Source: Candidatus Methylomirabilota bacterium
GTDB lineage: Bacteria; Methylomirabilota; Methylomirabilia; Rokubacteriales; CSP1-6
Assembly: GCA_036002485.1 (NCBI GenBank)
Contig: DASYTI010000214.1
Span: forward strand, 1-38,525
Direction: 5' to 3'
DNA length: 38,525 nucleotides
The notes below the pieces were generated by a model. That model had not been told where the DNA came from, did no database searches, and worked only from the letters and a program-made list of their open reading frames with translations. Shown one piece after another: positions 27,202 through 35,404 of the stretch (position 1 is its first letter; every line of letters begins with the position of its first letter). The translations under genes and the position numbers were made by a program.

Positions 27202-27382
27202 GATCCACCTCCCTCGCTGGTCTGGCAAAGCTACCCGTCTTCGACGACCTGATCACGCAGCAATTGCCATGCCGCGCGCGACAGGGTGGGCACGCGCCTT
27301 GCTTGCGCAATCGACGACAGCTCATCAGCTCACTCGCTCACTCATGGCGGCGCGAGCACATGTCTCGCGCCAGGAGGACACG

Positions 27383-27928
27383 ATGCGGACCCAGAAGATG
27401 ACCCGTCAGAGCACACGACAGAGCGCACGACGCACCGCGGAGAAGGACGCGATCGCCTTGCTCAAGGAGGATCACGAGAAGGTCCGCGAGCTGCTCGGCG
27501 AGCTCGAAAAGACCACCACCAAGGCCACCAGTCGGCGGGAGACCCTGCTCAAGTCGATCGAACAGGAGCTCAAGATCCACACCAAGATCGAAGAGGAGAT
27601 CTTCTATCCCGCCTTCCGCGACGCGGCCGAGAAGCAGGACGACAAGAAGCTGTACTACGAGGCCCTCGAGGAGCACCACGTCGTCGACATGGTGCTGCCG
27701 GAGATCAAGAAGCTCGACGCCGGGTCCGACGAGTTCGCCGCCAAGGCCAAGGTCTTGAAGGACCTCGTCGAGCACCACGCCGAGGAGGAGGAGACGGAGA
27801 TGTTCCCGCGGGCGCGCAAGCTCATGGACCGCGAGGAGCTCGTCCAGCTGGGTCAACGGCTCGCCCAGGCCAAGGAGTCGATGAACGGAAACATCCTGAC
27901 CAGGCTGACCGAGATGGTGCGGACCTAG
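27383..27928 (+). CDS. Hemerythrin HHE-domain protein
   Basis: A 181-residue four-helix-bundle protein with a hemerythrin-type diiron site. Candidate ligands are H31 (K-E-D-H-E-K), H66 (K-I-H-T-K-I-E-E-E with E70-E72), H98/H99 (L-E-E-H-H-V) and H131/H132 (V-E-H-H-A-E-E-E-E). Such proteins bind or sense O2, NO or reactive oxygen, or store iron; DNA-repair roles have been reported for some. The N-terminus is basic and Ser/Thr/Gln-rich for 20 residues. AGGAGG stands five bases before the ATG. It is a single gene, divergent from the GlsB-like gene. Confidence 0.93.
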   Translation: MRTQKMTRQSTRQSARRTAEKDAIALLKEDHEKVRELLGELEKTTTKATSRRETLLKSIEQELKIHTKIEEEIFYPAFRDAAEKQDDKKLYYEALEEHHVVDMVLPEIKKLDAGSDEFAAKAKVLKDLVEHHAEEEETEMFPRARKLMDREELVQLGQRLAQAKESMNGNILTRLTEMVRT

Positions 27929-28278: not shown

Positions 28279-29319
28279 ATGACGATCGTCGTAAGCGCCA
28301 GGAACGGGGCACGCGAGTTCGAGTGCGACCCCGGAGAAAAGATCCTCCACGCCGGCCTTCGGAGTGGTCTCGAGCTGCCCTACGAGTGTGCCACGGGCAC
28401 GTGCGGCACCTGCAAGGCTTGGCTCGTCAGTGGACGCGCCGAGAGCGAGTGGCCGGACGCCCCCGGCCGCCGCTATCTGAAGAGCGAGGGCGAGCTCCTC
28501 ATGTGTCAGTGCGTGGCCCAGGGGGATTGCGCACTCGACGTCGGTATCCCCTTGAAGGAGCGCGAGACGGGCACCCCCGCCCCGCGCGCGCTCGGGGGAA
28601 CCGTGCGCCGTCTGCGCCGGCTCACCCACGACGTCGCGGCCTTCGACATCGATCTCGAGGGTGCCCTCGACTTCGAGGCGGGGCAGTTCGCCCTCCTCAC
28701 CGTGCCGGGAATCACCGGGGCGCGCGCCTATTCGATGGTCAACTTCGACCCTCTCGCCGAGCGCCTGTCGTTCGTGGTCAAGAAGAAGCCGGGGGGCGCG
28801 GTCAGCGAGTGGCTCTTCCGCGACGGCGTCGAGGGCACGCGCCTCGGCCTCTTCGCCCCCCTCGGGCACGCGACCTTCCACCCTGCCCTGCGCAAGCACG
28901 TGCTCTGCATCGCGGGGGGAAGCGGCATCGCCGGCATGATGTCGATTCTCTCCCTGGCCTGTCAGGGCGGGCACTTCGGCGACTGGGATGGTCATGTCTT
29001 CTTCGGCGTCCGCACGGCGCGCGACGGATTCTTCCTCGACGAGCTGGAAGCCTTTCGGGCGCGGTTCCCGGATCGGCTCGCGGTGACCGTCGCCCTCTCC
29101 GACGAGGAGGTTCCCGACTCGCTGGCCGCCGCCTATCCGAGATTCGTCTTCGCGCGGGGCTTCGTGCACGCGGTGGCCGGCGAGAGGATGAAAACCCGCT
29201 TCGCCGACATTCGAGCCTACGTGGCGGGGCCACCCCCGATGGTCGACGCGAGTCTGCGCCTGCTCCTGCGCGAGGCGCGGCTGGCGCCCTCCGATATCCG
29301 GTACGATAAGTTCAGCTGA
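28279..29319 (+). CDS. Ferredoxin-NAD(P)H reductase with N-terminal plant-type [2Fe-2S] domain (oxygenase reductase)
   Basis: A 346-residue electron-transfer flavoprotein. Residues 1-90 form a plant-type ferredoxin with cluster ligands C37, C42, C45 and C76. A FAD-binding barrel follows (A-R-A-Y-S-M-V-N is the RxYS flavin motif). Then comes a NAD-binding domain with G-G-S-G-I-A-G-M. This Fd-FAD-NAD order is that of reductases of aromatic ring and methane/toluene-type oxygenases; they pass electrons from NADH to a ferredoxin or oxygenase. Length is normal. GGAG lies about five bases before the ATG. The next gene is an unusual double Fe-S protein, its likely partner, and a Rieske oxygenase is encoded about 5 kb downstream. 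Confidence 0.94.
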   Translation: MTIVVSARNGAREFECDPGEKILHAGLRSGLELPYECATGTCGTCKAWLVSGRAESEWPDAPGRRYLKSEGELLMCQCVAQGDCALDVGIPLKERETGTPAPRALGGTVRRLRRLTHDVAAFDIDLEGALDFEAGQFALLTVPGITGARAYSMVNFDPLAERLSFVVKKKPGGAVSEWLFRDGVEGTRLGLFAPLGHATFHPALRKHVLCIAGGSGIAGMMSILSLACQGGHFGDWDGHVFFGVRTARDGFFLDELEAFRARFPDRLAVTVALSDEEVPDSLAAAYPRFVFARGFVHAVAGERMKTRFADIRAYVAGPPPMVDASLRLLLREARLAPSDIRYDKFS

Positions 29320-29370
29320 CGGCACGCGGCCCTCAGCGGCACTACACCACAGTCAACCAAAGGAGCGGCA

Positions 29371-30063
29371 ATGGGCCAGTACGAGTGTCACGTGTTCGTG
29401 TGCACGAGCGGGGAGACGTGCCCCACCCAGGCCGATACCGAGCGTTTCGTGAAGGTCCTGCGGGACGGGGCTCGTCAGGCGGGTAAGCAGAGCGCCGTGC
29501 GCATCAACAAGGCCGGCTGCTTCTCGCAGTGCGGCCACGGCCCCATGATCGTGATCTATCCCGATGACGTCTGGTATGGCGGGGTCCAGGAGTCCGATCT
29601 CGAGGAGATCCTCACCTCGCACATCCTGGGCGGACGACCCGTGGAGCGGCTTCGCTACAATCCGGGCGTCGCGGGGGCCAACAAGATGAGCGACGACGAC
29701 ATCAAGCGCGCGGCGGAAAGCCGGGCGCCCCAGCCGGAGGTGCCCACCCAGCCCGCGACCTGGAAGCGCGTGTGTGGACGCGCCGATGTCCCCGCCAACG
29801 GCATGAAGCAGTTCTCGGTGGACGGTGTCGATGTTCTCATGGTGAACACCGGCGATGCCTTCGTCGCCTGCCAGGCCATCTGCCCTCACGAAGCCGTCCC
29901 CCTCGAGCAGGGCATCCACGACGGCTCCACCCTGACCTGCATGGAGCACATGTGGCAGTTCGATCTCAAGACGGGGGCGCCCCTGGGCGACGCGCAGGAG
30001 GGGCTCAAGGGCTATCGGCTCAAAGAGGAGCAGGGCGACCTGTACATCGCGCTCGAAGGCTGA
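29371..30063 (+). CDS. Fusion of thioredoxin-like [2Fe-2S] ferredoxin and Rieske ferredoxin
   Basis: A 230-residue soluble protein with two different [2Fe-2S] domains. Residues 1-95 match thioredoxin-fold ferredoxins: likely ligands C11, C17, C50 and C54, and the hallmark Y-P-D-D-V-W-Y-G-G-V and P-V-E-R-L. A linker rich in Lys, Ala and Pro spans about 100-130. Residues 131-230 are a Rieske domain with C171-P-H173 and C190-x2-H193. Each domain is common alone, but the fusion is not one I recognise as standard. AAAGGAG lies before the ATG, and the gene starts 51 bases after the reductase. It should relay electrons from the reductase to an oxygenase, or between two reductive branches; this is inference. 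Confidence 0.9.
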   Translation: MGQYECHVFVCTSGETCPTQADTERFVKVLRDGARQAGKQSAVRINKAGCFSQCGHGPMIVIYPDDVWYGGVQESDLEEILTSHILGGRPVERLRYNPGVAGANKMSDDDIKRAAESRAPQPEVPTQPATWKRVCGRADVPANGMKQFSVDGVDVLMVNTGDAFVACQAICPHEAVPLEQGIHDGSTLTCMEHMWQFDLKTGAPLGDAQEGLKGYRLKEEQGDLYIALEG

Positions 30064-30111: not shown

Positions 30112-30588
30112 ATGGCGCTTCGGGTGCGGCGGGTCATCACGGGTCATGACAAGAACGGGCGAGCGATCGTCAAGATCGACGAGCTCTCGGAGAATCTCTT
30201 CACGGGCCGGCCGGGAGCGACGGCCTGTAACGTGTGGACCACGGAAGGCTTTCCCGTCAACAACGACGGCGAGGCCGACGAGAGCTTGCGCAAGGTCGGC
30301 ACCACGCTGAAGCGCGGCACGATCTTCCGCATCATCGAGTTCGCGCCCGGTCTCGCCGCGCGCAACCACCGGACGGACTCCATTGACTACATCGTCGTCA
30401 TCTCCGGCGAGATCGACATGGAGCTGGACGACTCTCTCGTCCATCTGCAGGCCGGGGACGTCATGGTGCAGCGGGGCACCATCCACAACTGGGTCAATCG
30501 CGGTACCGCGCCCTGCGTGCTCGCCGTCGTCCTCATCGACGCCAAATCCGTCGAGGCGGGCGGGAAAGTCTTGCCCGCCGTCGGCTAG
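30112..30588 (+). CDS. Cupin-domain protein
   Basis: A 158-residue protein with a cupin barrel at about residues 68-145. The first motif is H86-R-T-D-S-I-D-Y, in which the usual H-x-H is reduced to one histidine. The second is G-D-V-M-V-Q-R-G-T-I-H125-N-W-V-N. This form recurs in small cupins next to dehydrogenases and oxygenases; metal binding may be weak, and a binding or sensor role is possible. GGGAGGGCGAG precedes the ATG. It lies 48 bases after the Fe-S fusion gene and 14-26 bases before an alpha/beta hydrolase, so it is in the same operon. Confidence 0.88.
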   Translation: MALRVRRVITGHDKNGRAIVKIDELSENLFTGRPGATACNVWTTEGFPVNNDGEADESLRKVGTTLKRGTIFRIIEFAPGLAARNHRTDSIDYIVVISGEIDMELDDSLVHLQAGDVMVQRGTIHNWVNRGTAPCVLAVVLIDAKSVEAGGKVLPAVG

Positions 30589-30614
30589 GCGTCGACCTAT
30601 CGGTGGGCCGGTTC

Positions 30615-31400
30615 ATGGCCGGAAATGGGGCGCCGCCCATGGCGGTGCGCACGAGGGGGAGCGGGCCCGACGTCGTGCTCTTTCACGGCGGGATGGGGTG
30701 CTGGCAGCACTGGATCCGAAACATCGAGCCCCTGGCCACCCGGTTCACCGTGCATGCCCTGGATCACCCGTCGTACGGCGCCTCGGCCTCGGTGCCGCGA
30801 GAGACGACGGGGAAAGAGTACCTGGATCTCGTCCACCGTCTCCTCGCGGAGATGTTCCCCGGGGATGCGCCGCTGCGCTTTGCCGGGTTCTCTTTCGGCG
30901 GGGTCATCGCGGCCAACCTGGCGCGCCGTCTTGGATCTCGGGTGACCCACCTGTGCCTCGTCTCTCCCGCCGGATTTCCGCCGCGCACCTTCGCCGAGCG
31001 GCCCACCCGCAGCTACCGGGAGGCGGGAGACGATGACCGGCTCTTCCGGGAGATTTGCCGCCACAACCTCCTCGTCAACATGCTGAGCGACCCGGCGAGC
31101 GTGACCGAGGACACCGTCGACATCCAGGCGTATTGCGTCCGCCACACCCGCTTCAATAGCCGAAAGGTCAGTGGGGGCGGAACCCTCCTCGACGATCTCG
31201 CCCGCCTCGAGGGTCGCCTTCGCGTGCTGTGGGGGGTGGGGGACGATTCAGCTTTTCGTCCCGCCGATGTCCTGATCGGGCAGATCCGCGAAGTGGTCGG
31301 GAACCTCGATCTCCATCGTATCCCCCGGGCCGGCCACTGGTCGGCCTATGAGAACGCCGGCGAGGTCAACCGGCTGATGCTCGAGTTCTTCACCCGATGA
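30615..31400 (+). CDS. Alpha/beta hydrolase
   Basis: A 261-residue single-domain alpha/beta hydrolase. The oxyanion motif is H-G-G-M-G and the nucleophile is the serine in A-G-F-S-F-G-G (about residue 93). The catalytic histidine is in A-G-H-W-S-A-Y-E near the end. It resembles the broad group that includes carbon-carbon hydrolases of meta-cleavage pathways (MhpC/BphD), which would suit the surrounding oxygenase parts, but lactonase or esterase activity is equally possible. The start is uncertain: ATG at 30615 is chosen, with a GTG at 30603 and an ATG at 30639 as options; none has a strong ribosome site. It precedes the dienelactone hydrolase gene by 13 bases. Confidence 0.88.
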   Translation: MAGNGAPPMAVRTRGSGPDVVLFHGGMGCWQHWIRNIEPLATRFTVHALDHPSYGASASVPRETTGKEYLDLVHRLLAEMFPGDAPLRFAGFSFGGVIAANLARRLGSRVTHLCLVSPAGFPPRTFAERPTRSYREAGDDDRLFREICRHNLLVNMLSDPASVTEDTVDIQAYCVRHTRFNSRKVSGGGTLLDDLARLEGRLRVLWGVGDDSAFRPADVLIGQIREVVGNLDLHRIPRAGHWSAYENAGEVNRLMLEFFTR

Positions 31401-31413
31401 AAGGAGAACGGAG

Positions 31414-32130
31414 ATGAGAGTGGTGGCGCGAAAGCTCACGCTGGACGAGGACGGCATCCCCGGCTACGTGGCGCATCCGGAAGGGAGCGGGCCTCGGCCC
31501 GGGGTGATGATGGTGCACCACGCCCATGGCGTCACCGCGGACTACAAGATCGACGCGTACCGGCTGGCCGCCCTCGGCTTCAACGTCCTCGTGCCCAGCC
31601 TCTTCAACATGTTCGGGGTGCCGGGACCGAATCACATCGGCCAGGGCGCCGACCTGCAGGCCAAGCACTCCGACAGCGAGTTTCTCGTGAAGATGGACGA
31701 GGCCTGGCACTACCTCATCGAGCGCCTGAAGTCAGACCCGGCCCGCACGGCGTGTATCGGGCATTGCCTGGGCGGCCGGCTCCTCATCCCCTTCGCGGCG
31801 GACCACCCTCAGGTGCGCGCCATCGTCCTCTACTACCCGTCCGTCCGCGATGAGCCCGAGACGTCGCACCGGCCGCGACATGCCTTCGCCCTCGCCAAGA
31901 CGCTCAAGTGCGCCTCCCTGGTGTTCTGCGCGGGCAAGGACCATATCGCCACGCCCGCCATCCAGGGCCCGCTCTGGCAGAGCTTCATCGGCAACGGCCA
32001 GCTCGTGGAATGGCACTTCTTCTCAGACGCCAATCACGGCTTCCGCCATCCCGACAATGACGGCTTCCAGCCCCACTACGCCGACCTCGCCTGGCCGCTC
32101 GTGACGAGCTTCCTGGAGCGCACGGTGTGA
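31414..32130 (+). CDS. Dienelactone hydrolase family protein
   Basis: A 238-residue alpha/beta hydrolase of the dienelactone hydrolase class, with cysteine nucleophile C118 in I-G-H-C-L-G-G and a histidine in A-N-H-G-F-R-H. AAAGGAG lies before the ATG. It is the last gene of the run that starts with the oxygenase-type reductase, so a role in opening lactones formed after ring oxidation fits. A second member of the class, only distantly similar, is encoded at 24278-25051. Confidence 0.92.
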   Translation: MRVVARKLTLDEDGIPGYVAHPEGSGPRPGVMMVHHAHGVTADYKIDAYRLAALGFNVLVPSLFNMFGVPGPNHIGQGADLQAKHSDSEFLVKMDEAWHYLIERLKSDPARTACIGHCLGGRLLIPFAADHPQVRAIVLYYPSVRDEPETSHRPRHAFALAKTLKCASLVFCAGKDHIATPAIQGPLWQSFIGNGQLVEWHFFSDANHGFRHPDNDGFQPHYADLAWPLVTSFLERTV

Positions 32131-33947: not shown

Positions 33948-34078
33948 GAGGGCAAGCCGGCCGTGATCCGCTTGACAAGCCGTGGGCGAGCGGCCTAGGG
34001 TTGCCCAAACCTTTGCAGACAACAACTCGAGCAAATGCTTCGCCGTGTTCAAGCCCTGAGAGGCGAGAGGAGGCCGGC

Positions 34079-35404
34079 GTGCCCGCACCCACTCCGCAAT
34101 CGACGCCCCGCCTGCACGTAGCGGACGCGCCGCCGGCAAACGGGAACGTCCCGAAGCTCGCCGGCGACATCCGACACCTCATCCCCAAGCTCGGCCTGCG
34201 CAACTACTGGTACCCCGCCATCGCGGAGAGCAAGGTCGCCCGGCGCAAGCCGGTGAAGGTCTCGATGCTCGGCGAGGAGCTGTGTCTCTTCCGCGGCACC
34301 CAGGGCGACGTCGTGGCCATCCAGGACGTCTGCCCGCACCGGGGCGCGCGCCTCAGCGAGGGCGACTGTCATTATCGCGGCACCGTCGCCTGCCCCTATC
34401 ACGGCTGGGTGTTCGACGAGTCGGGCAAGAACGTCATGGTGCTGTCGGAAGGGCCAGCCTCCGGCGTGTGCGGCAAGGCCGGCACCGAGGCCAAGGCCTA
34501 TCCCACGCGGACCCTCAAGGGCCTCGTCTTCGTGTGGATCGGCGAGGGCGCTCCCGCTCCTATCGAGGAGGACGTGCCCGAGGAGTTCTTCGACGCGGAG
34601 TCCCTCGTCCTCGTCGGCCAGGTCGAGTGGCGGTGCAACTGGGAGGTCGCCCTCGAGAACTCGATGGACTCGCACGTCAACTACGTTCACCGCAATGCCA
34701 TCGTGGTCGCCCGCAATGGCTTCATCGCCCGTGGCGCCCAGGGCGAGCACCCCATCTTCGTGGGCAACGGCTTCGGCGGCGACGTGGCCGAGAGCAACTA
34801 TCTGCGCCAGAACCCGCGGCAGGACCTCTATCCCGACGGCCGCAAGTGGCCGAAGACAACCTATCGCCGACTCTGGACCTGGCTGTCCCGGCCGCTCGCG
34901 GAGCGGGCGCGGCGTCACATTCCCTCCCCGCGCTCGGCCAAGTGGTGCGGCGGCCACCACCTGCCCGGCATGTTCCGCGCCGAGTTCGGCTGGGACCTCT
35001 ACACCCGCATGTGCGTGCCCGTCGAGGAGCACCGGACCCGGGTCTGGTACTACCACTGCACCCGGCCCAAGAGCGCGCTCGGGCGGCTCTGGGAGCGCGT
35101 CACCTACGCGGCCGTGCACCGGTGGATCATCGAGTACAACTTCTCGCGTCAGGACGAGCGCGTGATGATCAACCAGCGCTACGACACCCCGGAAAAGCTC
35201 TCGTCGACCGACGCCGAGGTGATCCAGTGGCGGCGGCTGGTCGTCACCAGGCATTTCGGCGGTCGCGACGCCCCGTTCGAGTACAAGAACCCCGACGGCA
35301 TGGCGCCGGAGGCCGTGCCCTTGAGCCGGGTCTCCGTACGCTACCTCCAGGAACAGGGGCGGATGCGGTCGACCTCGGCGGCCGAAGCTCCCAACGCCGG
35401 CTGA
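34079..35404 (+). CDS. Rieske non-heme iron oxygenase, catalytic subunit
   Basis: A 441-residue aromatic-ring-hydroxylating-type oxygenase. The Rieske cluster is held by C85-P-H87 and C105-x2-H108. The mononuclear iron site is seen as N194-x2-D197-x-H199-x4-H204, with D357 (R-Q-D-E-R) as the likely third ligand. D197 is the expected electron-bridge aspartate between subunits. Length and the Rieske-then-catalytic order are those of single-component-type alpha subunits such as the phthalate or carbazole dioxygenase group and O-demethylases. The start is the GTG at 34079 with AGGAGG five bases ahead. An ABC importer follows within 34 bases. Its reductase is likely the one at 28279. Substrate unknown. 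Confidence 0.95.
   Translation: MPAPTPQSTPRLHVADAPPANGNVPKLAGDIRHLIPKLGLRNYWYPAIAESKVARRKPVKVSMLGEELCLFRGTQGDVVAIQDVCPHRGARLSEGDCHYRGTVACPYHGWVFDESGKNVMVLSEGPASGVCGKAGTEAKAYPTRTLKGLVFVWIGEGAPAPIEEDVPEEFFDAESLVLVGQVEWRCNWEVALENSMDSHVNYVHRNAIVVARNGFIARGAQGEHPIFVGNGFGGDVAESNYLRQNPRQDLYPDGRKWPKTTYRRLWTWLSRPLAERARRHIPSPRSAKWCGGHHLPGMFRAEFGWDLYTRMCVPVEEHRTRVWYYHCTRPKSALGRLWERVTYAAVHRWIIEYNFSRQDERVMINQRYDTPEKLSSTDAEVIQWRRLVVTRHFGGRDAPFEYKNPDGMAPEAVPLSRVSVRYLQEQGRMRSTSAAEAPNAG

Follow-up and report, generated by a model that had tools for sequence, protein, structure and literature searches.

Does a protein that joins two kinds of [2Fe-2S] electron carrier in a single chain pass electrons through both of its clusters, and which oxygenases does it supply? 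This question is raised by positions 28279-30063 of the window, i.e., the whole 38,525-nucleotide stretch of DNA analysed here, which is contig C214 of a 4.4-Mb draft genome (G000, 95.7% complete) from Candidatus Rokubacteria, bacteria of soil and groundwater. Two co-directional genes separated by a 51-bp gap lie there, the first for an oxygenase-type reductase and the second for a protein carrying a thioredoxin-like ferredoxin and a Rieske ferredoxin. A previous sequence-only reading had proposed that the plant-type, thioredoxin-like and Rieske clusters form a relay serving an oxygenase; its coordinates, frames, ligands and domain assignments for both proteins all proved correct on re-examination. 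The reading that we prefer, and hold to be somewhat better than an even bet, differs in what the second cluster does: the pair would be a portable NADH-to-oxygenase supply module, to which the ferredoxin half was added once as a non-obligatory part, and which serves several oxygenases.

The two genes and their products

The features of the locus and its surroundings are as follows.

28279-29319, plus strand: NADH-dependent reductase, 346 aa, with a plant-type [2Fe-2S] cluster (C37/C42/C45/C76), an FAD and an NAD domain (Pfam and PDB matches)
29360-29365, plus strand: Shine-Dalgarno-like AAGGAG ahead of the fusion gene, inside the 51-bp gap (sequence)
29371-30063, plus strand: fusion protein, 230 aa, thioredoxin-like ferredoxin plus Rieske ferredoxin (sequence, profile matches, alignment)
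29371-29688, plus strand: thioredoxin-like [2Fe-2S] ferredoxin domain, residues 1-106, C11/C17/C50/C54 (profile and PDB matches, alignment)
29689-29757, plus strand: linker, residues 107-129, variable and fast-evolving, Ala/Pro-rich in most relatives (alignment)
29758-30063, plus strand: T4moC-like Rieske [2Fe-2S] domain, C171/H173/C190/H193, with W195 at the T4moC Trp position (Pfam, PDB and fold matches)
30112-30588, plus strand: cupin gene downstream of the module (Pfam)
30603-31400, plus strand: alpha/beta hydrolase gene downstream of the module (Pfam)
31414-32130, plus strand: dienelactone-hydrolase-type gene downstream of the module (Pfam)
34001-35404, plus strand: Rieske oxygenase with a CarAa-like Rieske domain, candidate electron acceptor (Pfam and PDB matches, co-occurrence)

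The reductase has an N-terminal plant-type cluster domain (Fer2, E 9e-13) followed by FAD_binding_6 (2e-8) and NAD_binding_1 (8e-8), the order found in the oxygenase reductases BenC, CarAd and that of toluene 4-monooxygenase (T4MO), and its top PDB matches are CarAd (E 5e-45), then the T4MO reductase and BenC. The fourth Fer2 ligand is C76 rather than C78, because the homolog at L065 has TCQS at this place. No other protein with an FNR-type FAD domain (PF00970) was found in the genome, but one GR-type ferredoxin reductase (PF14759, on contig C221) is present, so that the module reductase is not the sole possible donor. Reductase and fusion are likely carried on one transcript, and a GGAG-type site precedes the fusion gene in most other loci as well. 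Directly 5' of the reductase, at 27308-27928, lies a gene for a hemerythrin-family (HHE) protein, which is conserved in the sister genome G004.

As for the fusion protein, residues 1 to about 106 match thioredoxin-like [2Fe-2S] ferredoxins (PDB 1f37, E 2e-14; NCBIfam NF041612, E 1e-17). The scores are below the curated cut-offs (19.3 bits for PF01257, cut-off 24.8; 64.7 bits for NF041612, cut-off 150), but the PDB match still places this half in the superfamily, and it has the four Cys ligands, the second pair spaced C-x3-C, that characterise these ferredoxins. Residues 130-230 match Rieske proteins (PF00355, E 4e-14; T4moC, PDB 1vm9, E 7e-14) and show the motif C-x-H-x16-C-x2-H in a Rieske fold of about 100 aa. 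In the AlphaFold model the Rieske half is good and matches Rieske ferredoxins with TMt values mostly of 0.8-0.94, while the thioredoxin-like cluster region is poor.

The 230-aa frame is free of stops and frameshifts, including between the two domains, where the sequence-only reading had said that one would refute it. The same open fused frame recurs in eleven genomes at 63-100% identity, which rules out a sequencing, assembly or frameshift artefact, and all eight cluster ligands (C11/C17/C50/C54/C171/H173/C190/H193) are invariant in 9 of 9 aligned fusions. When the window is compared with G004, synonymous codon changes predominate in the ferredoxin half (26 synonymous, 5 non-synonymous) and in the Rieske half (16 and 8), indicating that both domains are maintained under purifying selection; in the linker, which varies in length and sequence among relatives, the counts are 3 and 9 (over residues 107-126).

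Distribution and origin of the fusion

Among the 57 genomes of the family, 12 have the reductase and 11 the full-length fusion, always directly behind this reductase; this answers positively the question, raised in the sequence-only reading, of whether such fusions always neighbour this reductase type. In every locus reductase and Rieske genes are adjacent with the reductase upstream, and nowhere in the family does the reductase occur without a Rieske gene. One reductase gene (L046, G034:C3, 8149-9100) is broken into two frames, either through an assembly error or because the gene is decaying, while the fusion behind it stays open.

In 38 further genomes of the phylum, searches at the same threshold returned either the ferredoxin half or no match. 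A motif scan covering about 85,000 species, one genome each, found full-length fusions from Rokubacteria only; because it requires exact short motifs, it would overlook diverged fusions. All named relatives with the full fusion are Candidatus Rokubacteria, and tblastn against plasmids gave no full-length match. Sequence and fold searches turned up no solved chain covering both halves, no NCBIfam or Pfam model spans them, and no paper describing the fusion was found in literature searches of open-licence papers, in line with the earlier remark that no standard enzyme system has this architecture. The fusion is thus real, conserved and narrowly distributed, a natural domain architecture in oxygenase electron transfer that is apparently undescribed.

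It had also been remarked that such carriers normally reside on separate proteins, and the same genomes do still keep an unfused copy of the ferredoxin. This solo paralog, 57-77% identical to the ferredoxin half, is present in most genomes of the family (in the window's own genome on contig C222) and sits, at the six solo loci examined closely, in a housekeeping cluster between rseP (or ispG) and proS; the full order at L048 is dxr-rseP-ferredoxin-proS-rimP-nusA-infB, and ispG (gcpE) lies directly upstream of the ferredoxin gene in L050, L051, and L052. Since IspG carries a [4Fe-4S] cluster and is known to receive electrons from ferredoxin in some organisms, the solo protein is plausibly a candidate electron donor to it. 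A thioredoxin-like [2Fe-2S] ferredoxin in a dxr-rseP-(ispG)-proS cluster is found across Rokubacteria and in some relatives of the phylum (L048, L051, and other loci). The tree places the family's solo ferredoxins together and largely separate from the fused copies; the AU test does not reject monophyly of the latter (p=0.55), in agreement with a single origin. Taken at face value, the housekeeping ferredoxin would have been duplicated in the ancestor of these Rokubacteria and one copy fused to the Rieske gene. A 3.4-kb contig labelled Hyphomicrobiales (L068) bears a Rokubacteria-like ferredoxin copy that diverges after about 70 residues; it is probably mis-binned.

The Rieske half resembles T4moC (57 bits) more than CarAc (37.5 bits). 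E174 after the first His and W195 two residues after the second His align with T4moC, whereas dioxygenase ferredoxins have Gly both after the first His and at the T4moC Trp site (PMC1847435, Table 3).

The place of the thioredoxin-like cluster

The most informative locus is that of isolate AR40 (G062, L065), in which the gene behind the reductase, starting within 20-odd bases of it, encodes a Rieske-only protein, MGQ-EDEAVWTRVC... This protein retains the first three residues of the fusion (MGQ), the ferredoxin half being missing cleanly and in frame, and the housekeeping ferredoxin is still present in the genome. In the tree it falls among the fusions, where the fused protein of G022, a genome of the same genus, is its sister (support 100/98); a solo Rieske protein as the ancestral state is therefore ruled out, and the ferredoxin half was lost secondarily. 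This loss is seen in one metagenome-assembled genome, with 8% estimated contamination.

The persistence of reductase and Rieske protein in G062 bears directly on the three-cluster relay of the sequence-only reading, in which electrons would have to pass from NADH via FAD, the plant-type, the thioredoxin-like and the Rieske cluster to the oxygenase. The fusion itself stands, and the strict co-occurrence and order of the genes, together with the invariant ligands of both clusters, would suit such a chain. However, the reductase-Rieske pair has apparently been kept in G062 in the absence of a fused middle cluster, which makes an obligatory passage through that cluster unlikely. Thioredoxin-like ferredoxins are moreover usually more reducing than the clusters of the reductase and of Rieske ferredoxins, potentials that would place an uphill step in the middle of the chain. 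An obligatory linear relay is thus, in our view, improbable, and the thioredoxin-like half is suggested to be an optional extra rather than an essential middle step, even if its invariant ligands and the purifying selection acting on it indicate that the domain is important wherever it is kept.

The most economical path would accordingly run from NADH to FAD, to the plant-type cluster, to the Rieske cluster and on to several oxygenases. The reductase would take a hydride from NADH onto FAD and send single electrons on to the plant-type cluster that it carries itself. From there they would reach the Rieske domain, which would dock on the terminal oxygenase in the manner of T4moC and CarAc. The thioredoxin-like cluster, retained but not an obligatory link, would sit beside this main path, where the ferredoxin half would most likely hold the protein as a dimer, provide an additional, low-potential entry point for electrons to the Rieske cluster, or both.

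Each of these two roles could also be the whole answer. If the ferredoxin half served solely for dimerisation, its cluster would stabilise the fold and carry no electrons to the Rieske domain. Relatives of this half are homodimeric, and five dimer-interface positions have been reported for Azotobacter FeSI (PMC8561814); four of the five are kept at matching offsets (H7, F9, G49, Y63), which suggests that the thioredoxin-like half may dimerise like FeSI. The linker, variable in both length and sequence, is also compatible with a purely structural domain, but four invariant ligands seem more than dimerisation needs, and we regard this explanation as unlikely. Alternatively, the ferredoxin half could take electrons from the putative donor of the housekeeping ferredoxin and hand them to the Rieske domain. 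The close identity to a ferredoxin that adjoins ispG in relatives, the purifying selection on the domain, and the apparent retention of NADH input in G062 would all be expected of such a dual-input hub, to which we nonetheless give a rather small chance. Were it true, oxygenases could run either on NADH, through the adjacent reductase, or on the low-potential ferredoxin pool, and a ferredoxin of the isoprenoid pathway would have been captured into one covalent carrier. Because G062 offers a natural deletion and the genomes with the fusion also keep an unfused paralog, the purpose of the second [2Fe-2S] domain is directly testable.

Candidate acceptors and known systems

Coming back to the supply module that we prefer, it probably serves several oxygenases per cell, a possibility with a precedent in a single reductase-ferredoxin pair that supplies many Rieske oxygenases (PMC1847435). 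The window's genome contains some solo Rieske ferredoxins besides four Rieske-oxygenase-type frames, and genomes with the module are rich in Rieske proteins (median 14.5 versus 6 in the others, p=0.01). Which oxygenases neighbour the module varies between loci. In the window, the neighbours are the cupin and the hydrolases, kept beside the module only in G004 (30112-32130), with a Rieske oxygenase 4 kb away; G029 and G011 have a luciferase-like (LLM flavin) monooxygenase whose stop overlaps the reductase start, with HpaB also near the module in G011; G016 has LigB and a LigXa-like Rieske oxygenase, G030 a two-cupin dioxygenase-like gene, an HpcH aldolase and LigB, and G034 TauD; and in G022 and G062 a gene for a 263-aa PF02332 diiron protein is adjacent to and divergent from the reductase gene. 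Should one module indeed feed several oxygenases, it would offer a generic electron donor for expressing many uncharacterised Rokubacteria oxygenases.

The sequence-only reading had named as partner the Rieske oxygenase placed at 34079 (frame 34001-35404), on the same strand 4 kb downstream. Homologs, 78-90% identical, occur in 15 of the 57 genomes, namely in 8 of the 12 with the module and 7 of the 45 others (Fisher p=0.001). This association is lost upon stratification by Rieske richness, as the Rieske-rich genomes alone give 8/11 versus 7/13 (p=0.42). In addition, homologs and fusion lie on different contigs in the other genomes that have both, and in the window an opposite-strand GH39 gene lies between the module and the oxygenase gene. 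The link to this oxygenase as a dedicated partner was therefore abandoned, and we consider it distinctly doubtful. The oxygenase itself reads NSMDSHVNYVH where the iron ligands are expected; compared with the D-x-x-H of known enzymes, it appears to be one residue short. PF04909 amidohydrolase-family genes adjoin two of its homologs (G004:C98:1536-2516 and G011:C68:11297-12175).

Less usual oxygenases, either PF04909 dinuclear enzymes or the 263-aa diiron protein, could be the acceptors instead, and the T4moC-like character of the Rieske half would agree with this. The proximity of PF04909 genes is of interest because some members of the family are dinuclear oxygenases presumed to rely on a small Rieske protein, as predicted for the AibG/AibH system (PMC10811679). 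Such genes lie within 8 kb of the module in G016, G030, G011, and G029 (4 loci versus 1.3 expected, p=0.03, in a test chosen after the neighbours had been seen), but the family is a large one, with 17-65 members per genome, and often supplies decarboxylases or hydrolases for aromatic catabolism. The diiron gene is divergent from the reductase gene in G022 and G062, but it shows no association with the module at the genome level (p=0.74), which led to its rejection as a general partner, and no PF02332 protein is found in the window's genome. Acceptors of either kind thus look like a long shot.

The 263-aa PF02332 protein (methane/phenol hydroxylase family) merits a word of its own. Encoded for instance at L043 (G022:C51, 7011-7802, minus strand), with DEQRH and DETRH motifs, and further at L041 (13004-13798, minus strand), L123 (15407-15868), and L126-L138, it recurs in about 15 Rokubacteria genomes with 81-95% conservation. 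It is much smaller than the alpha subunits of about 500 aa and is possibly a minimal single-subunit diiron oxygenase.

Among characterised chains, that of toluene 4-monooxygenase likewise combines a Fer2-FAD-NAD reductase with a Rieske ferredoxin, and the fused Rieske domain has T4moC as its best match, including the Trp of the HxW motif. In contrast, T4moC has no thioredoxin-like domain, and no multi-subunit TmoA/TmoE-type hydroxylase was found in the window's genome. The carbazole 1,9a-dioxygenase chain is similar in its reductase, CarAd being the best PDB match, and in the CarAa-like Rieske part of the oxygenase at 34001, but CarAc is a solo Rieske ferredoxin, whereas the Rieske domain here is fused and more T4moC-like. 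The caffeine demethylase reductase NdmD is another natural multidomain electron carrier and also has a Rieske domain, in this case fused to the reductase and without a thioredoxin-like ferredoxin, whereas the reductase is separate here. NdmD feeds more than one Rieske oxygenase, NdmA and NdmB, and according to a 2025 review, self-sufficient Rieske oxygenases have yet to be found and there is a demand for better redox-partner fusions (PMC12445004). The AibG and SfbO systems share with the present one a Rieske protein, small and predicted to feed a dinuclear oxygenase (PMC10811679); their acceptor belongs to PF04909, and no thioredoxin-like fusion is described for them. Lastly, the thioredoxin-like half shares with Aquifex aeolicus Fd, Azotobacter FeSI and Clostridium pasteurianum Fd the fold family, the four Cys ligands and conserved dimer-interface positions, and differs from them in the spacing of its first Cys pair (C-x5-C here versus C-x12-C, C11/C24 in FeSI) and in being fused to a Rieske domain.
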